From the IMG/VR virus record IMGVR_UViG_3300012920_000233, positions 1 through 25,679 of that record: 25,679 nt of DNA. The stretch is one strand, 5' to 3'. Source of the DNA: a virus. Positions 2,822 through 21,600 of this stretch are shown here, one piece after another. Both the position numbers and the translations under genes were made by a program. Within the stretch, counting starts at the first letter, position 1. The number at the start of each line of letters is the position of its first letter. Under the pieces are notes generated by a model, which ran no database searches, was not told the origin of the DNA, and worked only from the letters and a program-made list of their open reading frames with translations.

Positions 2822-3243
2822 TATGGCTTTAATACGTCTTTAATATTTTCTTCTCGCATGTTGTTTCGAGCAACACCTTTCCATTTTTCAGCAGTTCTTA
2901 AACCACCAAGACCAAGCAAAGATAAAGTCAAAGTCATTAGTCCTTCAGTATTAATTACTGGCGGTTGAATTGTTGAGCCTGAAATAACTACTACCCAATT
3001 CATCAAAGGTGCTAAAAAAAATTGCCAAGCTAAACCTAACGCACAAATCCAAAGAATTGCAGGTCTGCTTCCTGAAACAAAAATACTAGGATGTTTGGCT
3101 TGTTCTAAATTTATGTCTGCTTGTGCTTTTTGCAAATCAATCATTTGTGACTTGATACTAGCTTCCAATTCCATACGCTTATTTTTATCAGGTATGGCTT
3201 TACCAATTAGATCACTTATTGGTTTAAAAAATTTATCAATCAT
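2821..3243 (-). CDS. Holin, GTA-type 3TM family
   Basis: The 140-aa protein has a charged N-terminal helix (about 15-50), then the signature HPSIFVSGSRPAILWICALG leading into membrane segments at about 61-86 and 102-115. It ends with LGLGGLRTAEKWKGV and a basic tail. This matches the family known as GTA_holin_3TM (holins of gene transfer agents and related phages). These form lesions in the inner membrane that release the endolysin. A GGAGGG sequence sits ten bases before ATG 3243. The first codons overlap the end of the upstream MscS-like gene by eight bases, and the stop overlaps the endolysin start, a normal holin-endolysin pair. Confidence 0.85.
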   Translation of the reverse strand: MIDKFFKPISDLIGKAIPDKNKRMELEASIKSQMIDLQKAQADINLEQAKHPSIFVSGSRPAILWICALGLAWQFFLAPLMNWVVVISGSTIQPPVINTEGLMTLTLSLLGLGGLRTAEKWKGVARNNMREENIKDVLKP

Positions 3244-3598
3244 CTTCTTTGCCCTCCAAAATGTTTTTTAGTTTTTGTCGCTTTTCATAAGCAGAATCTT
3301 GATGTAAGTCTTTATCAACTATCTTTTCTAGTTTAAGGGATTCTATTTTATTATTGCTTATATAACGCCATGTATAGCCATCACGACCATAAACACCAAA
3401 GACAGTAGTACCCATGCCTATTTTAATTATCATGGCTTGTTCGCCATCTAATAAGACTTTATCGCCTTCATTGAATTGAGAGTTAAGTTTAAATTTAAGA
3501 CCCTTGATAAAAGATACAGAATAATCTTTTAGAGCAAGACCACCTAGTACACTTGCTATGAATATTGAAATTTCAACATAATATTCTTCTATGTTCAT
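3236..3598 (-). CDS. Small MscS-like membrane protein
   Basis: The start chosen is ATG 3598 (MNIEEYYVEISIFIA), two bases after the upstream stop. The frame is also open from ATG 3616, which would overlap that gene. The protein has about 120 aa, with one hydrophobic segment (roughly residues 8-23 from this start). A small beta domain follows: FNEGDKVLLDGEQAMIIKIG, then TTVFGVYGRDGYTWRYISNN. The 'GD.V..dG..a.I..Ig...T.f......' pattern and the 'ipN' equivalent ISNN resemble the beta domain of MscS mechanosensitive channels, reduced to one membrane helix. It lies between an XhlA-like protein and the holin, so a role at the host membrane during lysis or infection is plausible but unproven. Confidence 0.65.
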   Translation of the reverse strand: MNIEEYYVEISIFIASVLGGLALKDYSVSFIKGLKFKLNSQFNEGDKVLLDGEQAMIIKIGMGTTVFGVYGRDGYTWRYISNNKIESLKLEKIVDKDLHQDSAYEKRQKLKNILEGKEDD

Positions 3599-3599
3599 T

Positions 3600-3836
3600 T
3601 CACATGAAGAAAGCATTGATCACTAATGAAGATAATAAGCCAATTACAATACCTGCAATCTGCCATAATCTTTTGTTTGTGATATTTATATCAGACTCAA
3701 TAGAATCTAATCTACGAAAATTTTCTTTCCATTTTTGTTCACAAACTTTTTCATGCCTATCAAGGGCATTTGCTACTTGTTCAACTGTGGGTCTTTTAGT
3801 CGATTGTTTTTGTTTCGCTGTCTGCTGCTTCTTCAT
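3600..3836 (-). CDS. Small tail-anchored membrane protein, XhlA-like
   Basis: The 78-aa protein has a Lys/Gln-rich start and a helical, coiled-coil-like middle (about 18-55, with RRLDSIESDINITNKRL). It ends in one membrane helix (about 58-76, IAGIVIGLLSSLVINAFF). This layout is that of XhlA/hemolysin-type small phage proteins, which accompany holins in lysis cassettes. The 'rl..iE.d.n..n..l' spacing before the helix supports this. It overlaps the upstream small gene by 41 bases and ends two bases before the MscS-like gene. No good Shine-Dalgarno is visible, so coupling is likely. Spanin or a second holin are alternatives; no lipobox is present. Confidence 0.55.
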   Translation of the reverse strand: MKKQQTAKQKQSTKRPTVEQVANALDRHEKVCEQKWKENFRRLDSIESDINITNKRLWQIAGIVIGLLSSLVINAFFM

Positions 3837-4065
3837 CCTGAATCATCGATTGTTCAAATCCTTTAATCAGAATGTTTTTATAATCACTAAGGCAGACAAA
3901 TGAATCATAAGCATCTTGTAAAGAATTAAGTTGTTTTGCTGTTGCTCTTAATTTAAGTGCAATATCCCTTTGTTGGTCAGTCAATTCAGAAGATTTATAT
4001 TCTCTATCATTAAAAGTGATTAAAGTGGATTCTTCTGTAGACTCTGTTTTTTTAGTTTCTTCCAT
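3796..4065 (-). CDS. Hypothetical acidic protein, 89 aa
   Basis: Unassigned. After an acidic Thr/Ser/Glu-rich start, residues 16-30 read ITFNDREYKSSELTDQQ, a 'beta hairpin then helix' opening. I recall this from small phage proteins that begin 'I.ING.EY...EL.' and are sometimes found near lysis genes. The remainder looks helical, with one cysteine (SFVCLSDYKN). No membrane segment is seen. It is the first gene of the four-gene stretch that leads into the holin and overlaps the XhlA-like gene by 41 bases. The leader has no evident Shine-Dalgarno sequence. Confidence 0.55.
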   Translation of the reverse strand: MEETKKTESTEESTLITFNDREYKSSELTDQQRDIALKLRATAKQLNSLQDAYDSFVCLSDYKNILIKGFEQSMIQDEEAADSETKTID

Positions 4066-4435: not shown

Positions 4436-4705
4436 TTATGTTTTTGGATATTTGTCCTTTACTTCCTTAATTTGTTTAGCCATGTCTTCTGGGAAAGCAC
4501 CAGCATGATACAAAGCATCTAATTGATCACCAATATCAGGATATTCAAACTGTCTTTTGTGTTTGTATTCTTCTGGGTCTTGCCAAGCATTGACTAAATC
4601 TTTATCAATATTAACTTCGTTACCATCTTTATCATAAGCAACTTCACCATCTATAACTGTAACATTAGAATACAATGCTCTTACTGCTTTATGAAAATCT
4701 ACCAT
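4436..4705 (-). CDS. Small fibre-partner protein, 89 aa (DQLD...KDKYPKT family)
   Basis: The C-terminal part reads FEYPDIGDQLDALYHAGAFP and ends IKEVKDKYPKT. The same ending scheme is found in the 115-aa protein at 6184-6531. Such small proteins commonly follow fibre genes in marine phages. A role in fibre assembly or attachment is inferred from position, not shown. The N-terminal half (VTVIDGEVAYDKDGNEVNID) is a different, short beta-type segment. The ATG shares a base with the stop of the 488-aa fibre gene, and a GGAGA inside the fibre's last codons probably serves as its ribosome binding site, so the two should be made together. Confidence 0.65.
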   Translation of the reverse strand: MVDFHKAVRALYSNVTVIDGEVAYDKDGNEVNIDKDLVNAWQDPEEYKHKRQFEYPDIGDQLDALYHAGAFPEDMAKQIKEVKDKYPKT

Positions 4706-6171
4706 TATGATTCTATCTCCATAAGTGTTATTGTTGAAATTGTTCTGCCTGTATAGTTAGCATTAGTATCATTATATGTTCTGTTTACATAATGTACACC
4801 TGCATAAATGAACGCTTGTATTTTATAAGTTGTAGCAGAGGTAGTAGAAGGAGTATCTAAAAATGTCATACTTGCATTTATGGCTCTATTTGCATCTAGT
4901 GCATGGGTATGACCGCCTGTAGTTGCTCTTGTTCTTGAACCAACATTTGTATTTGCACCAATACCAATTGCTGTCGTACCTCTGACAATTCTAAATTTAA
5001 CTAAAGAATTATTACCACCATTTGTATGAAAATTAACCAATATTTTACTAGATGTTGATGAAGGTGTTATTGTTGCATTGAAGCCTGTAATATCTTGATA
5101 TTGTCCTGTAAGTGAACTAGACCAAGTGTCTGATTTTGTTGTGCTAACAACTTGTAAAAGTTTACCGCCACCACTTACATTAGTTAAAGCTGAACCATCT
5201 CCTTCAAATGCAGTTGCTTTGACTGTTCCGTTTACCTCTAATTTTTCGCTAGGACTTGTAGTGCCAATACCAATATTTCCTGCCTTTTTAATTGTTAATC
5301 TTGCTTCTGGAGTTGCAGAAGCACCATTACCTGTATAAAAAGTAAATCCACCGCTTTGTGCACCAGAATTGTTAAACCATATATCAGCATTGCCATCCAT
5401 ACCAATACTTGATTTTTGTGGTGTAGAAGAATCATCCCAAAGTATTATTTTTGCACCGCTAGGATGCGAAACATTGGCTGCTGCTGGGTTAGTGTAACCA
5501 GCTGAAACACTAAAGTATGACTGTACACCTGTAGAAGCAGTACCACCAGCAACTTCAAATCTTCCGCTAGGATTTGATGTTCCAATTCCAATATCACCAG
5601 CACCAGTAATACGCATTCTTTCAGTAGTATTTGTTTTAAATACAATTGGATGATTGGTATTTCTTGCAATTTCAAGGAAATTACTAGAATCGCTGTAGAT
5701 TACAGATTTTCTTGAATTTGCTACACCCATGTCTATTCTTGAAGCCTGATTACCATTCAGTTGTAAACTTGCATTACTGCCTGTTGTGTCAAGTATCACT
5801 TTAAACCCCGGCATTGCTAAACCCATTGGATCAGAAGCAATAGAGCCAAACGTAACAATATCATCCTGCCTAAAAACGGCTAATGGGTTTGTGCCTAATG
5901 TTGAGCCATCGCCAATAATTAAGGCGCTATAAGTATCATCTAAACCAACGTGAAAATCATAATTATTACCGTCAAAAATAATTTTAGTATCTTCTGCATC
6001 ACCATCTCCTATTGTTATAGTAGGAGTTGTGCCACCTATATGTAATTGGGATTGTGGACTTGTTATCCCTATACCGACCTGTTCCGAACTGTCAATTGTT
6101 ATAGCAGTTGCGTTACCACTGTCAGAAATACTTGGTGTGCTTGATAGTTCTACAGGTATTTTGGTAGTCAT
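4705..6171 (-). CDS. Tail fibre protein 2, 488 aa
   Basis: The stem is built from repeats of the 'VGIGT..P..kLeV.G' type: GIGITSPQSQLHIGG near residue 33, GIGTSNPSGRFEVAGG near 195, and GIGTTSPSEKLEVNG near 300. Between them are Gly/Ser/Thr-rich beta segments typical of trimeric phage fibres. A GDGSALTNV linker is followed by a C-terminal globular domain (about 340-488) with FNATITPSSTSSKILVNF, TFLDTPSTTSATTYKIQAF and the ending STITLMEIES. I recognise this as a recurring tip domain of marine phage fibres. It is the likely receptor-binding end, but no receptor can be named. The stem shares long identical stretches with the 1346-aa fibre, whereas the tip differs. No Shine-Dalgarno is seen before ATG 6171. 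Confidence 0.8.
   Translation of the reverse strand: MTTKIPVELSSTPSISDSGNATAITIDSSEQVGIGITSPQSQLHIGGTTPTITIGDGDAEDTKIIFDGNNYDFHVGLDDTYSALIIGDGSTLGTNPLAVFRQDDIVTFGSIASDPMGLAMPGFKVILDTTGSNASLQLNGNQASRIDMGVANSRKSVIYSDSSNFLEIARNTNHPIVFKTNTTERMRITGAGDIGIGTSNPSGRFEVAGGTASTGVQSYFSVSAGYTNPAAANVSHPSGAKIILWDDSSTPQKSSIGMDGNADIWFNNSGAQSGGFTFYTGNGASATPEARLTIKKAGNIGIGTTSPSEKLEVNGTVKATAFEGDGSALTNVSGGGKLLQVVSTTKSDTWSSSLTGQYQDITGFNATITPSSTSSKILVNFHTNGGNNSLVKFRIVRGTTAIGIGANTNVGSRTRATTGGHTHALDANRAINASMTFLDTPSTTSATTYKIQAFIYAGVHYVNRTYNDTNANYTGRTISTITLMEIES
5179..5253 (-). repeat. Stem module shared with the 1346-aa fibre, copy in fibre 2
   Basis: These 25 codons encode PSEKLEVNGTVKATAFEGDG followed by SALTN. The same 25 residues are encoded at 6847-6921. 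The two DNA copies differ at about 15 positions, all silent. Confidence 0.85.
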
Positions 6172-6540: not shown

Positions 6541-9500
6541 TTAAGTTATTTTACCTGTTGCTATCCAATAATATCCTGCTGTTACACTATAATGAGATAC
6601 TCTAAAACCTGTAGCGGTTGCACTTGTTTTTGGAGTTACAGCATCAGCATTACTAACACCATTTGTATCATTATTACTATGATATATAGTCGTAACAATG
6701 CTGTATAAATTAGTAAATGATGTTGGAAAAGTTACTGTATCTGAACTAGATGTTGTGGCTCTTTGACCCCATTGTATAGTGTAGCCATTTGAAAATTTTA
6801 TATACCCATTGGCTGCCAAACTACTAGCTGCTATATCACCGCTTATGTTTGTCAGTGCAGAACCATCACCTTCAAAAGCTGTTGCCTTGACAGTGCCATT
6901 TACTTCTAATTTTTCACTAGGAGTTGATGTCCCTATACCTAAACCTGTTGAAGTAAGTCGCATACCTTCAGCAGAATTGACAGAAAACCTTAATGGTTTA
7001 TCAACTCTAGTTGCCATTTCAAAGTAATTTAAATTGTCACTAAATAACAATCCTGTTCTGACATTATTATCACCAAAATTAATAATTCCACCACCACCAC
7101 CATCTAAACGTAAATCAGCATACTCAGAACTACCGCCACTATTTTTTAAAGCTAAAATTGTTGCTGCTGTTGATGTAAGACCTGCTATATTAGTTGTTGT
7201 TGTACCTAACATTAGGTTGCCATCAAGCAAACGCATTTTTTCAGAATTGGTAAAAGAATTACCTGCTGTGCCTTGGTCTGCTGAGTGCCAAGTGTGCATC
7301 CCATTAGTATTGATACATGTTTGTTCGTAAGATGTAGCACCACCGTCTTGTTGATAGATATAGTTACTACCGTCAAAATAATGATTAGCACCAAATCTTA
7401 CTGTATTATTTCTACCCCATATATTCCATGCACTTGTACCTGCTTTACCTTGCAAGATTATGTCACCTGTTACCCAAGAGTTAGGTGTAAAGCTAATGCC
7501 TACATTACCGCTTGAGTTTATTTCAAAATTACGATTAGCACCTACTGAGTTACCTTTACCTATAACTAAGCTGTCGTTTGTATCATAAATACCTAAATAG
7601 TAATCAACAGTGTTACCATCAAAAACAAGTGCTGTATTTTCTGCACCACCATCACCAATAGTAATTGTTGGGGTAGTGCCTGTCACACTTAAACTATCTG
7701 TTACAGTTAAAGTTGATGGTGTTGTTAATGCACCACTTAACTTAGCTGAAGTAACTGTGCCATCATCCGGTGTGCCGATAGACACTGATTCAGCGTTATA
7801 AACTGTTATTACTCTGCCGTTTTCTGGTGCAGTAGCAAAAGTTAAAGTTGTGCCTGAAACTGAATATACATTTTGTGCTTGAAAGACACCATCAATGAAA
7901 ACTACTAAATTATTTTCAGAAGTTGGTGCTGAAGACAAAGTGAAGCCTGTAGTATTGCCATCACCAGAAAGTATATTGGTAGTAAATGAGCCAGTATTGC
8001 CACTACCGGCTATTGCACCCCATGCACCATTTGCATAACCCTCAAACTGTTGATCTTCACTGTTATATCTAAAATAACCATTTGCACCTGTAGGTCTTTG
8101 TGCTGTAGTGCCTACAGGAACATGTATTGCATCAGTTGCACTTCCAACATCTAAAGAAACATCAGGAGAAGAATTAAGTATACCTACTCTATTATTAGAA
8201 CTGTCTACTTTAAGAGTGTTGGTATCTATTAGTAAGTCACCGCTTACATTTAATGAACTTAAAGTTCCCACACTAGTGACATTGTTTAGAGTGTCTAAAG
8301 CAGATTCAAAAAAAGTTTCAAAGTCAGTTAAAGCAACTTGTTTCATAGTGCCATTGTCATTAACCACAACTCTGTCAGTATCTGCCAATGTCACTGAAGA
8401 AGCACTTGTATCGCCATCAAGAATATTTAGTTCAGAAGCTGTCGAAGTAACGCCATCCAGAATATTAAGTTCTGCTGTTGTTGATGTAACACCATCAAGA
8501 ATATTAAGTTCGGAAGTTGATGCTGTTACACCGTCAAGAATGTTTAGTTCAGAAGTTGTAGCGGTAATGCCATCAAGAATATTTAATTCTGAAGTCGTAA
8601 CTGTTGCACCATCTAGAATATTTAATTCTGTAGCGTTTGAAGTAATTGCTGTACCTGCAAGAGTAATATCTGTAGTCGCTAAACTGTTAACATCTAAATC
8701 TGCTAAAGCATAACCTGTAGCACTACTGTTAACAGTGGTAGTTGGTGCTGTTTGTGTGTCTTTAAATATTTTGAACGTGCCACTATCAGAAGCATCATAA
8801 TAAATACCTGCATATTTTGTAGTGCTTGATTCAACATACTTTCCATAAAATCCAAAATCTGTACTATTGGCAGTATTGGAATTACTTAACCCTGTAAAAT
8901 TATTATCTGTAATAACTGAACCTGTTTGAGTTGTATTTCCCACAACAGTCAAGTCACCGCTTACTGTTAAGTTATTTGAAACAGTAACGTTGTTTGGCAA
9001 ACCTATTGTGAGTGTGTCGGTTGCACTAACAGCTACTTCAACTTCATTGCTTGTACCTGATACTGTTAAAGTGTCTCCACCTGCAATAGTTTGTGTATTT
9101 GTTCCATCAGAAAGTGTAAAGCTAGTAGAAATATTAGCTGTACTTGCACTTGTTATTCTGCCTTTAGCATCTATTGCAATTACTGGCACTGCAGTTGCAC
9201 TACCATAAGTTGCTGCACTAACGCCAGAAGATGCAAGAGAAACAGCACCACTATTGACTGAAAAATCGCTTGTAAATGAAGCTATACCTTTATTAGAACT
9301 TGTAGCATCTTCTGCTGAATAAGTTATTGTTCCTGAACTTTCTGATACATCTAAACCTTCACCTGCTGCATAATTTATAGTTTCGCCTAATTGTATTGAT
9401 GTTGTATTGCTGCCGTCACCGATTGTAATACTACTATTAGCAAGTTTTGCATTGGCTATAGAACCTGCTAATTGTGCATTTGTAATTGTTCCAGTTAAGC

Positions 9501-10581
9501 TGCTTGTTGGATAGTTTGTAGCATCAGATAGATCAAACGCAGGTGTTGCATCACTACCTCCTAAAGATAAGCTCACACCACCATAAGAAACTGATGAATT
9601 AGCAAGTTTTGAATTTGCAATACTACCTGCTAATTGTGAATTAGTAATTGTGCCGGACAAACTTGATGTTGGATAGTTAGTAGCATCGCTCAAATCAAAT
9701 GCCGGTGTGGTATCGCTTTCACCTAATGCAAGTGTAACACCTCCAAAGTTTACATTGGAATTTGCCAACATTGTATTACTAACTGTGCCACTATCGCCTG
9801 AACTGACAATAGTTCCTGTACTTGCAGGTAAAGTAAGTGTTGGATTTCCTGCAAATGCACTATGTGCAGGTGCTTGTAATTTTACATAATGAGCATTACT
9901 TGCTTCACAATAAAATAAAATATTTGACTGTGTACCACCATTTTTTATTTTTATTGTGCCTTGCTCTATAACAACGCCATTTGTTGAGCCACCACCTACG
10001 CCTAATGAAGAAGCAGTAACTTGATTAAAGGTTACATCATCAGAAGTACCGACACTTTGTCCAATAGCAAAAGTAACATTGTTACCTGATGCAGTTGATG
10101 TAATACCAGTGCCACCCAATAATCCCAAAGATTCGCTATCTAGGTCTATACTTATAGAACTGCTGCCATCTGATAAATCAAGGTCTTGTGCAGTTACTTG
10201 CGAATCAACATATGCCTTAATGGATTGTTGAGTGGCTAAAGCTGTATTTGAATCTGAACCTAAATTATCTTCATCTAATATAGTGGTTACTGTTTGACCA
10301 CTACTAAAACTAAAACTTGTTATGCCATTTACAGTGCCACCATTTATATCAACAGTATTATCTGCTGTTATAGATATTGGCAGAGTTATCCATCCGTTAT
10401 TTGCAGAATTTCTTATTTTTAATAAATCATTAGATGTATCTACCCAAATTTGATAAGCATACATTGTGGATGGCTCAGTAGCATTAGAGTTATTAGATAC
10501 AATTGCTTGTAAAGCATTGTTTAAATCTGCTCTAAAATTTGCACCTGATTGATTGTCAAGAACGTAATCGTGGGTAGCCAT
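6541..10581 (-). CDS. Tail fibre protein 1, 1346 aa
   Basis: The N-terminus (MATHDYVLDNQSGANFRADL, then NALQAIVSNNSNATEP) is the attachment-type opening seen on many marine phage fibres. The long shaft is Ser/Thr/Asn/Gly-rich and has several repeat classes. There are two 54-residue units with PAFDLSDATNYPTSSL, six 13-residue ELNILDG units, and 'GIGTSTPSEKLEV' stem units. The C-terminal 95 residues contain NGYIKFSNGYTIQWGQR, VTFPTSFTNLYS and YYWIATGKIT. This follows the pattern of the gp53-like tail-fibre tip: 'G.I..pnG..iQWG', 'v.FP..F', 'yWiAiG'. The tip probably contacts the host surface. It lies directly downstream of the tail hub and its small chaperone. There is no Shine-Dalgarno before ATG 10581, only an AT-rich leader. 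Confidence 0.85.
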   Translation of the reverse strand: MATHDYVLDNQSGANFRADLNNALQAIVSNNSNATEPSTMYAYQIWVDTSNDLLKIRNSANNGWITLPISITADNTVDINGGTVNGITSFSFSSGQTVTTILDEDNLGSDSNTALATQQSIKAYVDSQVTAQDLDLSDGSSSISIDLDSESLGLLGGTGITSTASGNNVTFAIGQSVGTSDDVTFNQVTASSLGVGGGSTNGVVIEQGTIKIKNGGTQSNILFYCEASNAHYVKLQAPAHSAFAGNPTLTLPASTGTIVSSGDSGTVSNTMLANSNVNFGGVTLALGESDTTPAFDLSDATNYPTSSLSGTITNSQLAGSIANSKLANSSVSYGGVSLSLGGSDATPAFDLSDATNYPTSSLTGTITNAQLAGSIANAKLANSSITIGDGSNTTSIQLGETINYAAGEGLDVSESSGTITYSAEDATSSNKGIASFTSDFSVNSGAVSLASSGVSAATYGSATAVPVIAIDAKGRITSASTANISTSFTLSDGTNTQTIAGGDTLTVSGTSNEVEVAVSATDTLTIGLPNNVTVSNNLTVSGDLTVVGNTTQTGSVITDNNFTGLSNSNTANSTDFGFYGKYVESSTTKYAGIYYDASDSGTFKIFKDTQTAPTTTVNSSATGYALADLDVNSLATTDITLAGTAITSNATELNILDGATVTTSELNILDGITATTSELNILDGVTASTSELNILDGVTSTTAELNILDGVTSTASELNILDGDTSASSVTLADTDRVVVNDNGTMKQVALTDFETFFESALDTLNNVTSVGTLSSLNVSGDLLIDTNTLKVDSSNNRVGILNSSPDVSLDVGSATDAIHVPVGTTAQRPTGANGYFRYNSEDQQFEGYANGAWGAIAGSGNTGSFTTNILSGDGNTTGFTLSSAPTSENNLVVFIDGVFQAQNVYSVSGTTLTFATAPENGRVITVYNAESVSIGTPDDGTVTSAKLSGALTTPSTLTVTDSLSVTGTTPTITIGDGGAENTALVFDGNTVDYYLGIYDTNDSLVIGKGNSVGANRNFEINSSGNVGISFTPNSWVTGDIILQGKAGTSAWNIWGRNNTVRFGANHYFDGSNYIYQQDGGATSYEQTCINTNGMHTWHSADQGTAGNSFTNSEKMRLLDGNLMLGTTTTNIAGLTSTAATILALKNSGGSSEYADLRLDGGGGGIINFGDNNVRTGLLFSDNLNYFEMATRVDKPLRFSVNSAEGMRLTSTGLGIGTSTPSEKLEVNGTVKATAFEGDGSALTNISGDIAASSLAANGYIKFSNGYTIQWGQRATTSSSDTVTFPTSFTNLYSIVTTIYHSNNDTNGVSNADAVTPKTSATATGFRVSHYSVTAGYYWIATGKIT
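6847..6921 (-). repeat. Stem module shared with fibre 2, copy in fibre 1
   Basis: This segment encodes the same 25 residues (P-S-E-K ... A-L-T-N) as 5179-5253, with about 15 silent DNA differences. It joins the stem to the C-terminal tip in both fibres. Confidence 0.85.
8413..8646 (-). repeat. Six tandem 39-bp units encoding ELNILDG repeats
   Basis: Copies of a sequence reading CCATCAAGAATATTTAGTTC with variations begin at 8413, 8452, 8491, 8530, 8569 and 8608, an exact 39-base step. Each unit encodes 13 residues of the form (T/A)SELNILDG(V/I)T(A/S)(T/S). They are in frame in the fibre gene and vary at third positions, so they are coding repeats rather than a recent slippage product. Confidence 0.9.
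9440..9763 (-). repeat. Two tandem 162-bp units in the fibre shaft
   Basis: Two units spaced exactly 162 bases apart (GCAAGTTTTG at 9440 and 9602) encode 54-residue modules. Each carries GGV.L.LG, PAFDLSDATNYPTSSL, GTITN.QLAGSIAN and KLANSS. The protein copies are nearly identical; the DNA differs mainly at silent positions. Confidence 0.85.
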
Positions 10582-18636: not shown

Positions 18637-21600
18637 TTAACTAGCTGTACAGAAAGATACCGCGTGTCTGACATTTACATCTAGACTTTGTAAAGCCACA
18701 ACTCTAACAGTACCAGAAGTGCTGTTTGAGTAAGGGTCTACAACAATATCTAAACCTGAGAACATACCTACTAATAAGTCTTGCATGTTACCGAAAACGT
18801 AGTTGTTTGCAGTAAGTTGTGCAGAAACTACAACAGGGTAACCATTGATCTCATTGTTAGCTAAAACAAATTGACCAGAACCACTGTCCTTAGTAGTTGT
18901 TTTCAAAGTACCTGCATTAGTTGGGTGAACGATGTATACAAGTCCTCCTAATAGTGCATTATCGACAGCAACAGAAGATTCCATAGAAACCATCTCAGCA
19001 AAAGTTGGTGCAGCAGCACTATTTAAAGAAACAGTGTTTACGCCTGTAGTGTTTGTAATACCTGTAGGATTACCACTTGAACCAGAACCTTCTAAAGCTG
19101 CATTATCAATCGCAATAGCCATTGAACCTGCTAAGTCATTTCTAATTAAGTTTTCAACATCTAAAGATGACTGAATCATAAGCTGACGAGTTACGTCAGT
19201 GAAAGCACCTAAAGTTTTAGGTGACATAGTCACTGAACCAATAGTCATTTCTGATTCACCGGCAGCACCACCCTCAGAAGAAATAAAAGCTGCAGTAGAA
19301 GCTGCTGTTTTCTTCGGAATTTTGACATCGCCAGATAGACCATTAAGAATAGTTGCATTCTGCATTACAGCAGAAGAATTTCTTAATACGTCAATAAAAT
19401 CACCTGCTCTGAAGTCTTGACCAATAAGGTTAGAATCGTCAGATGCGTTCATGTCACGTTGACCCCAATTAGCTAATACTTCTGGTGGTAGTAAAACACC
19501 TTGTGCTGTCTTACCATATAGTTCACCTGCTGCTCTTGAACATTCAAATTCAAATGCTGCATCTTCTTGAGCCTTGCGGTCAGTAGGGTTAGCCATTGCA
19601 TTAATGGCTCTTAAAATGCTAAATCTTTTGGTTTCTTTTTCAGTTAAACCGATTTCAGAAGGAGTTTCTAAAGGTTGGTCATTAGAAATATTTTCTAGCA
19701 ATACACCTCTAAATTCTTCGACTGATAAACCATCAGAAATAGCTTGATCAGCTAAATCTCTTTTGTTGTGTCTAGCAGCTAAGTCAAGAATCTCTTTTGA
19801 GTTTCTTTTAAACTCTGCTTTTGCTTCTTCAACAGTTTTAGATTTAACCTCGTCAAGATTTATTTCTTGTACTTCATTTTCCATTTTTCTTACCTCTTTA
19901 TGTAAAATGTTTTGGTTATCTTTAGAACGACCTACACCGACTAATCTACTTTGGTCAGCAGGAACGCTTACAGAAGATACTTCCATAGGTGTCCAACTAG
20001 CACGATAATAGGTTTCATCGTCTTTGCCTGTACGTTCTAATTTATCTACTCTGTAGCCAACACTTATATTCATTCGAATACCATCGACCACATCTTGAAA
20101 TACTTCACGAGCAAGTTGAGATTTACCAAATCTAACGATAGCAATTGTCCTTTTAGCTACCTCGTCAAGTTTAAATTCCTCGATTACACCAATTTGTTTA
20201 GTCATGTCATGGTCTAACAATAATGGTGCGCGTCCACTAGAAATAAATTCCATATTTACTTCGTCAGCACGATGTCCTAGTACTTCCATACCAAAACTTC
20301 TTTCAACAGGTTCTTCTGATGATACGCCTATGCGGACTCTCCTATTTTCTTCATCGATACCAGAAGTTCGTGATAAGTCGATCAATCTATATTCCATAGA
20401 ACTTTCTACTTTACGTTCTTCTTCATCGTCATGGTATGGTCTTTCGTCCATTTCCATGTCCATTTCTTCCGACTCATCCTTCATTTTTTTGAACTCAATG
20501 ACTACTGAATCATCAGTTTCAGAAAAATTTAGGATATGTCTATCTTCTTTATTTTCAATATCCATAATCTTTTCCTCTTTATTTTTGGATGACATTGGAT
20601 GTCCTTCAGGCAATAAATCTGTGTCATGCTTTCCTGAACGGAAGCGACCATTGCGGAGGGCGTACAGAAAGGAATTTATCCTTGCTGCTGCCCATTGCTC
20701 AGGACTACTGACTGAAGGTCTTACAGAAGATGGATTAGTCTTATAAGCACCAATCCCTCTTTCGTAAACTTTTGATAGTACGCTGACTGTAGTTCTTTTT
20801 GATTTTACATCGCCTACTTCTTCATTATGTTCTTTTACTTTATTCTTAATCATTTCAAGAGCCTTACCTGATACTGCTCTATTTTCTTCTATAGCTTGTG
20901 TGTTAATTTTGCCACCCATTCCAGAATGATTAACACAATAATAATATAAGTCAGGCGTATCTTGATTGATAGTTATTGAAATTGATGCACCTTCTTCACC
21001 TGCCTTGCCTGATACTTCAACGCCTTTTGTATAGGCTTCACCATCATTATGCACACCATCTTCTGTAACAGAAAATCTTAAAGCGTGTGTTTTATTAGAA
21101 GCATCAGATAAATTAAATACATAAGTATTACCTTCAAGCATATAAAGTCTTGGAGATAATTCACCGTCTAAATAGAATTTATTACCTTCACCATATTTGT
21201 TTTTACCAGCTTTTATAATTACTTCGTATTCAATTGTTTCTTGTCTTACTTTATTTACTTCTTCGTTATAAGTTTGTCGTTCTTCTTTCATTTTTTCTAC
21301 CAATCTTCTTGACCAAGAATATCCTGCATCTCCTCCCCATAATGCCCATGCAATACGTCCATTTGAAGGATATCCTTCCTCGCCAGAATCAAATCCTTCT
21401 GCTTCTTTATCTACTTCATGTCTGCTAAAAAAGCTATACATTCTTTTTATAGTATCGTCAGATAAGTTTTCACCGGCAACAATTTGTCTTGCCCTAATAG
21501 CACCAACCCTAGTACCACCACGACCAAATTCTTCTCGCCATTCAAGACCTTTCTTTGCTTCAGCTTTCATACCGGCATTAGGTATCGCCATCGTCATCAC
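18637..21600 (-). CDS. Three-module head protein: unknown cupredoxin-like module, S78 prohead protease, HK97-fold major capsid protein
   Basis: A single 987-aa frame. Residues 1-112 hold a phage motif block (WREEFGRGGTRVGAIRARQI, RIAWALWGGDAG). Residues 122-232 form a beta-rich, cupredoxin-like segment with H172 and YYYCVNHSGMGG (C222, H225, M228). About 240-340 is a second phage block (QWAAARINSFLYALRNGR, DTDLLPEGHP). From M346 comes an HK97-type protease with His464 in LLLDHD and Ser513 in IRMNISVGYRV. From M573 there is a helical scaffold-like delta region (578-640), then an HK97-fold capsid domain (GVLLPPEVLANWGQRD; GSGSSGNPTGITNTTGVN). Starts at 20565 and 19884 have their own ribosome binding sites, so separate protease (227 aa) and capsid (415 aa) products are likely besides the full fusion. 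The outer start is GTG 21600 or the ATGs at 21597 and 21591, overlapping the portal end. Protease and capsid identities are firm; the first module is unassigned. Confidence 0.85.
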   Translation of the reverse strand: MMTMAIPNAGMKAEAKKGLEWREEFGRGGTRVGAIRARQIVAGENLSDDTIKRMYSFFSRHEVDKEAEGFDSGEEGYPSNGRIAWALWGGDAGYSWSRRLVEKMKEERQTYNEEVNKVRQETIEYEVIIKAGKNKYGEGNKFYLDGELSPRLYMLEGNTYVFNLSDASNKTHALRFSVTEDGVHNDGEAYTKGVEVSGKAGEEGASISITINQDTPDLYYYCVNHSGMGGKINTQAIEENRAVSGKALEMIKNKVKEHNEEVGDVKSKRTTVSVLSKVYERGIGAYKTNPSSVRPSVSSPEQWAAARINSFLYALRNGRFRSGKHDTDLLPEGHPMSSKNKEEKIMDIENKEDRHILNFSETDDSVVIEFKKMKDESEEMDMEMDERPYHDDEEERKVESSMEYRLIDLSRTSGIDEENRRVRIGVSSEEPVERSFGMEVLGHRADEVNMEFISSGRAPLLLDHDMTKQIGVIEEFKLDEVAKRTIAIVRFGKSQLAREVFQDVVDGIRMNISVGYRVDKLERTGKDDETYYRASWTPMEVSSVSVPADQSRLVGVGRSKDNQNILHKEVRKMENEVQEINLDEVKSKTVEEAKAEFKRNSKEILDLAARHNKRDLADQAISDGLSVEEFRGVLLENISNDQPLETPSEIGLTEKETKRFSILRAINAMANPTDRKAQEDAAFEFECSRAAGELYGKTAQGVLLPPEVLANWGQRDMNASDDSNLIGQDFRAGDFIDVLRNSSAVMQNATILNGLSGDVKIPKKTAASTAAFISSEGGAAGESEMTIGSVTMSPKTLGAFTDVTRQLMIQSSLDVENLIRNDLAGSMAIAIDNAALEGSGSSGNPTGITNTTGVNTVSLNSAAAPTFAEMVSMESSVAVDNALLGGLVYIVHPTNAGTLKTTTKDSGSGQFVLANNEINGYPVVVSAQLTANNYVFGNMQDLLVGMFSGLDIVVDPYSNSTSGTVRVVALQSLDVNVRHAVSFCTAS
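19882..19897 (-). promoter_or_regulatory. Internal ribosome binding site and start for the capsid module
   Basis: In-frame ATG 19882-19884 (M573, MENEVQEINLDE) is preceded by AGAGGT at 19892-19897 with a seven-base spacer. It sits exactly between the protease and the capsid scaffold-like region. A product from here would be 415 aa, a normal capsid precursor size. Confidence 0.7.
20563..20580 (-). promoter_or_regulatory. Internal ribosome binding site and start for the protease module
   Basis: In-frame ATG 20563-20565 (M346, MDIENKEDRHIL) is preceded by AAAGAGGAAA at 20571-20580, with AGAGGA seven bases from the start. A product from here up to the capsid start would be 227 residues, a normal S78 protease size. 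Confidence 0.7.

Follow-up and report, generated by a model that had tools for sequence, protein, structure and literature searches.

The metal known from phage particles is mostly iron, held in fibres and spikes. Phages can also encode cupredoxins; the plastocyanin of cyanophages (petE) is one, but it is a free metabolic protein and not part of the virion. Ig-like domains, by contrast, are optional beta-sandwich modules that are exchanged among the head and tail proteins of phages and are sometimes carried on minor extended products. In T4, HxH motifs of gp37 bind iron, and metal-binding residues occur in structural proteins of marine phages as well (PMC11705849, from the part of the text available). 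The copper ligands of amicyanin are His53, Cys92, His95 and Met98 (PMC12723479, available excerpt), and viral nirK is the subject of a further paper (PMC8115048, available excerpt). In the open-licence literature, judged from search listings, we found no paper that describes a virion protein with a cupredoxin domain. The available part of a paper on roseophages (PMC12629253) does not mention a cupredoxin, and the open-licence listing for At5g54830 holds nothing on the phage cupredoxin-like domain described here.

Results

The window, by which we mean the whole 25,679-base virus record that was analysed, has the gene order of an ordinary tailed phage: terminase, portal, one long ORF, and head-tail and tail genes. 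In the C-terminal part of the 987-aa product of the long ORF, residues 415-685 match prohead protease/major capsid fusions and residues 728-984 match Phage_capsid; the segment considered here, residues 122-240, lies between matches to phrog_2859 (residues 7-119) and DUF5824 (residues 264-313; Table 1). A second model, covering residues 4-345, was poor (pLDDT 65.0, pTM 0.35), and we took nothing from it except that the flanking regions are helical. Elsewhere in the window, two neighbouring tail-fibre-like ORFs (4705-6171 and 6541-10581, minus strand) have the stretch SPSEKLEVNGTVKATAFEGDGSALTN in common, and the larger of them (6541-10581) contains tandem TSELNILDG-like repeats.

Table 1. Positions in the window of the long ORF, its parts and the putative internal start signals
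Feature	Position	Strand	Basis or remark
Long ORF	21600..18637	-	987 codons
N-terminal helical domain	21238..21591	-	phrog_2859 match at residues 7-119
Cupredoxin-like domain, residues 122-240	20881..21237	-	AlphaFold model, Foldseek, VIA-align; Pfam Copper-bind sub-threshold
His172 (domain H51), candidate first ligand, in THALRFS	21085..21087	-	Sequence; aligned to ligand His of secreted relatives and, via them, of Copper-bind
Cys222 (domain C101), candidate thiolate ligand, only Cys of the domain	20935..20937	-	Sequence, conservation, profile alignment
His225 (domain H104), candidate second His ligand	20926..20928	-	Sequence, conservation, profile alignment
Met228 (domain M107), axial ligand position	20917..20919	-	Sequence, conservation, profile alignment
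Cassette absent from L366 and L367, ~130 aa, residues ~108-237	20891..21281	-	blastn gap and protein alignment
Helical region with DUF5824 match (residues 264-313)	20566..20880	-	Domain match and model
Shine-Dalgarno and internal ATG (M346), putative protease-capsid product of 642 aa	20563..20581	-	74/75 distinct contexts
Prohead protease and HK97-type major capsid protein	18637..20565	-	Profile matches
Second Shine-Dalgarno and ATG (M573), putative capsid-only product of 415 aa	19882..19900	-	Strict GAGG/AGGA in 26/69 contexts

A preliminary description of this DNA had proposed that the ORF contains a cupredoxin-like segment with a complete set of type-1 copper ligands, and had named structure prediction and comparison as a check. 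AlphaFold2, supplied with 27 aligned sequences from the window and related loci, returned a confident beta sandwich for the 119-aa domain (pLDDT 95.0), and this predicted model has the Greek-key arrangement of solved cupredoxins. Almost every match listed by Foldseek was a multicopper oxidase or a rusticyanin, the best with E 3.5e-4. The best VIA-align match (Z 9.3, rmsd 3.0, 100 aligned) was to residues 26-137 of 2dv6_A, which form the N-terminal cupredoxin domain of a nitrite reductase from Hyphomicrobium; rusticyanin and a cupredoxin from Nitrosopumilus scored Z 7.2-8.0, and all listed rows were of the cupredoxin type. Z values of 8-9 barely exceed the background that VIA itself gives for common folds, and nothing can be concluded from a family missing from its list. 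PDB sequence searches gave only weak antibody, filamin and ovalbumin matches.

By sequence and profile alignment, His, Cys, His and Met occupy the four ligand positions of a type-1 site, H172 within THALRFS and C222, H225 and M228 within LYYYCVNHSGMGG, and the domain holds a single Cys. The CxxHxxM spacing is that of C92, H95 and M98 in amicyanin (PMC12723479, available excerpt). A chance motif and an Ig fold were considered and rejected, since cupredoxins are what the comparison of folds returns and the ligands follow a conserved pattern. The proposal of the preliminary description is thus confirmed by the model, by its cupredoxin matches and by the joint retention of the ligands described below, and we conclude from the model and the alignments that residues 122-240 are a true cupredoxin-type domain with an intact type-1-like site and belong to a family not resolved by Pfam. 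The BFVD matches to the model by fold include giant-virus "beta-sandwich proteins" (Marseillevirus LCMAC and Pithovirus LCPAC).

Conservation of the site was counted in scans whose patterns came from alignments of the N-terminal part alone and contained none of the four ligands; two partial rows were dropped, and scans with ligand-bearing patterns (Cys and His stretches in one, His in another) were left out. All four ligands are kept in 123 of the 136 unique complete domains so obtained, and the remaining 13 each lack at least two. A third scan, with a pattern that includes the early His, gave the full set in 74/74 domains. Pooling yielded 237 unique domains, or 226 complete ones once 11 partial rows were dropped, 213 with the Cys and 13 without it. 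Every one of the 213 Cys-bearing domains has exactly one Cys, and loss of H51, H104 or M107 was seen in 0 cases each, whereas every other conserved column listed varies in some of these rows. In the 13 Cys-less domains H51 is gone in 11, H104 in 12 and M107 in eight, but F41, S44, S56, Y69, Y99 and Y100 are retained in nearly all domains, Cys-bearing and Cys-less alike. This pattern is suggestive of a site that disappears as a whole from domains that are otherwise retained. Natural relatives of the site-less type include L266 and L098. The domain tree, which is poorly resolved, contains about six changes of ligand state and three independent pairs on supported branches, for which a sign test gives p 0.25 for H51 and H104 and 0.5 for M107; because the rows are related and contribute only these changes and pairs, the joint loss is strong as a pattern and is not formally proved. 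Homologues that lose the four residues freely had been named beforehand as evidence against the proposal, and the ligands are instead kept or lost as a set.

That 13 relatives without the site keep the remaining domain, and that many conserved non-ligand residues mark the family, would also suit a fold kept only as a binding surface, its four residues conserved by packing or recent descent with no metal bound in vivo. We consider this very unlikely: the ligand columns alone, among the conserved columns listed, are invariant in the Cys-bearing domains and they disappear together, and a lone conserved Cys in an exposed protein would be unusual without a metal. A further residue, H184 (domain H63, in a DGxH motif; 21049-21051, minus strand), is kept in 201 of the 213 Cys-bearing domains and gone in eight of the 13 Cys-less ones, and His63 may be a second-shell or further metal residue. 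One ORF (L104) carries two copies of the domain (2989-3297 and 3658-3966), of which one has the full set and the other is without Cys, His and Met.

The link to known copper proteins runs through secreted bacterial domains. Against the window domain, Pfam Copper-bind (PF00127) stays below its cut-off (E 0.064, 14.1 versus 21.2 bits), and at E up to 0.1 it matches only 3 of 35 family members; the family profile found no cupredoxin among PDB sequences. We built three profiles: A6, the phage family (35 members; eight of 39 cluster representatives, seven without the ligand set plus L070, were left out, and its invariance at the four ligand columns is a consequence of that selection); A7, from 13 of 15 extracted Copper-bind stretches; and A8, from 15 of 17 gammaproteobacterial stretches. 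A6 aligned to A8, the 15 secreted gammaproteobacterial domains, with His, Cys, His and Met in register (prob 99.1, E 1e-18), and A8 aligned to bona fide Copper-bind (A7) with the ligands again matched (prob 75, E 2.4e-5). The direct comparison of A6 with Copper-bind was weaker (prob 63, E 6.9e-5), with Cys, His and Met aligned and the early His three columns off. The At5g54830-like family PF25489 gave no match to the window domain at E up to 10 and a weak one in one of 35 scanned family members (E 0.0023); secreted gammaproteobacterial relatives do match it, L355 above the cut-off (33.1 versus 27 bits).

A set of His, Cys, His and Met is able to hold metals other than copper. The site might then bind zinc or iron, say, as a purely structural staple like the HxH iron of the T4 long tail fibre, and metal staples in phage fibres are established by gp37 (PMC11705849, available part). 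This is quite unlikely in our judgement, as copper is the best fit to a Met that is present in 213/213 Cys-bearing domains and to the alignment with the Copper-bind ligands.

A tblastn search found the domain in 189 of 50,697 phage records, nearly all from cyanophages, with a few from Pelagibacter and Methylophilales phages. Cultured cyanophages whose records contain it include S-TIM5, P-HM1 and P-SSM2. The names of the carriers in these records include tail fibre, baseplate wedge and virion structural protein, and the PHROG matches of eight locus ORFs agree with the tail-fibre, baseplate and virion-structural annotations. The statement in the preliminary description that similar strings recur in structural proteins of marine phages is borne out. 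A host metabolic gene was also considered as the source of the signal and was rejected because the domain lies in frame within virion proteins. Among the bacterial relatives are a lipoprotein-like ORF that also has a cadherin-like domain (L304), a protease of the serralysin/RTX type (L307) and a DUF4214-like protein (L308). Another is an open frame of 10,091 codons (L306, contig C5 of G003) from a Bacteroidetes genome in which other large ORFs contain Copper-bind domains. In the class to which genome G002 belongs, 17 of 185 genomes had a match, and 18/18 matches show H...CxxHxxM by eye. Three gammaproteobacterial proteins of ~500 aa (L351, L354 and L355) begin with a domain of the cupredoxin-like family, which is followed by a long C-terminal part.

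A full set of type-1 ligands, spaced as in amicyanin (PMC12723479, available excerpt), might point to a redox-active blue copper protein, in which the virion site would exchange electrons with the host envelope or remove oxidants, in the manner of the plastocyanin and amicyanin shuttles. A bacterial relative from another genome (L323) has Gln at the Met position, which also fits this possibility. Gln for Met is a known variation of type-1 sites. We nevertheless judge such a function unlikely: the carriers are fibres, baseplates and head extensions rather than respiratory proteins, no obvious redox partner was noticed among the window ORF translations read by eye, and 13 domains have lost the whole site and kept the fold, which shows the fold to be useful without metal.

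Two loci, L366 and L367, have protease-capsid parts 97% identical to that of the window and lack the cassette altogether. Their DNA matches the window over ~10 kb, with 95% identity on one side of the gap and about 90% on the other. Among 80 loci fetched by the protease-capsid part, the domain is present in 14 and absent in 56, and 10 are cut at the 5' side. In some loci the domain follows DUF5824 rather than preceding it, and L034 carries the domain without a DUF5824 match. A tree of the capsid part with 76 tips (32 with and 44 without the domain, a mixture of domain-fetched and capsid-fetched loci whose proportion is accordingly not a frequency) requires 13 changes of presence, at least 10 of them forced by starred branches, with gain and loss indistinguishable. 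As judged by these sequence comparisons, phage virion proteins and secreted bacterial proteins carry the domain as an accessory cassette that is optional and exchangeable.

The ORF also contains signals for internal initiation. At M346, just before the protease, 74 of 75 distinct contexts have GAGG or AGGA no more than 16 bases away, compared with 156 of 2342 other in-frame ATGs of the same ORFs; the sole miss is L406, which is cut at its 5' end. GAG makes up just 18.8% of the Glu codons in these ORFs. Roseophage CRP-406 has a Shine-Dalgarno sequence and ATG at the place matching M346. CRP-406 and CRP-811 are cultured roseophages that share this gene layout, and no cupredoxin is seen in their extensions. 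We infer that the internal starts are used and that the gene probably makes nested products of ~987, 642 and 415 aa. With starts at M346 and M573, the protease-capsid and capsid-only products would be without the domain; the copper domain would then be on the longest product only, and this product is probably a minor one. The placement of the domain on a capsid-related protein in the preliminary description is accordingly not supported as it stands, and "head protein" has to be qualified. The domain lies in an N-terminal extension upstream of both starts and outside the protease and shell parts, close relatives lack the cassette, and the domain does not belong to the shell-forming polypeptide, given the Phage_capsid match at residues 728-984, the start signals at M346 and M573 and the absence of the domain from most capsid-fetched relatives.

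Discussion

Our data suggest that the domain is most likely a metal-stabilised accessory module of virion proteins. The fuller account that we favour, with some reserve, is that of an accessory cassette of cupredoxin type with a type-1-like site, present in this phage on the longest product only, which would act as a metal-loaded structural or adhesive add-on. Under this account the cassette sits as an insertion between the two helical domains of an N-terminal extension, in a nested gene for prohead protease and major capsid protein. The site, once exposed outside the cell, would take up copper, the copper would lock and stabilise the sandwich at its loop end, and the module so loaded would provide a robust structural or adhesive addition to fibre, baseplate and head-associated proteins. 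A point against copper loading is that the phage protein is synthesised in the cytoplasm, which contains little free copper. In addition, because it is placed upstream of the prohead protease, the domain in this phage may be internal or may be cut off at head maturation; exposure is likelier in the fibre and baseplate proteins.

What appears to be new, from the sequence comparisons, is a conserved copper-type site that behaves as a mobile module of virion proteins. A broader proposal, which we offer tentatively and regard as possible rather than probable, is that many phages of the ocean, cyanophages and pelagiphages among them, have type-1 copper in their virions, bound by interchangeable cupredoxin cassettes that also occur in secreted bacterial proteins, that metal loading on release aids particle stability or host docking, and that phage particles constitute a pool of bound copper in sea water. 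If so, many phage particles may carry metal, copper would shape virion stability or attachment in the ocean, and phages would hold part of the bound copper pool. The system offers a clear and cheap test object, since it comes down to a single domain of 119 aa and four residues, with natural relatives from which the site has gone.

The domain shares with Copper-bind proteins and amicyanin the Greek-key fold, an early His followed by a C-terminal Cys-His-Met, an aromatic strand before the Cys and, with amicyanin, the CxxHxxM spacing. It differs from Copper-bind in its sub-threshold score, in a long segment from His to Cys that contains DGxHxxG, and in being a module of a virion protein rather than a soluble electron carrier. 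Like cyanophage petE it is a phage-encoded cupredoxin, but the window domain is part of a virion protein, whereas petE is a free metabolic protein. Compared with the Ig-like accessory domains, it has another type of fold, a predicted metal site and a position on an N-terminal extension made from an upstream start. The iron-binding HxH tail fibres likewise have metal-binding residues in phage structural proteins, those of marine phages included (PMC11705849, available part); there, however, iron sits at HxH motifs of the fibre, whereas here a globular domain presents the ligand set of a type-1 copper site. If our reading is correct, such domains would be the copper counterpart of iron-loaded tail fibres.
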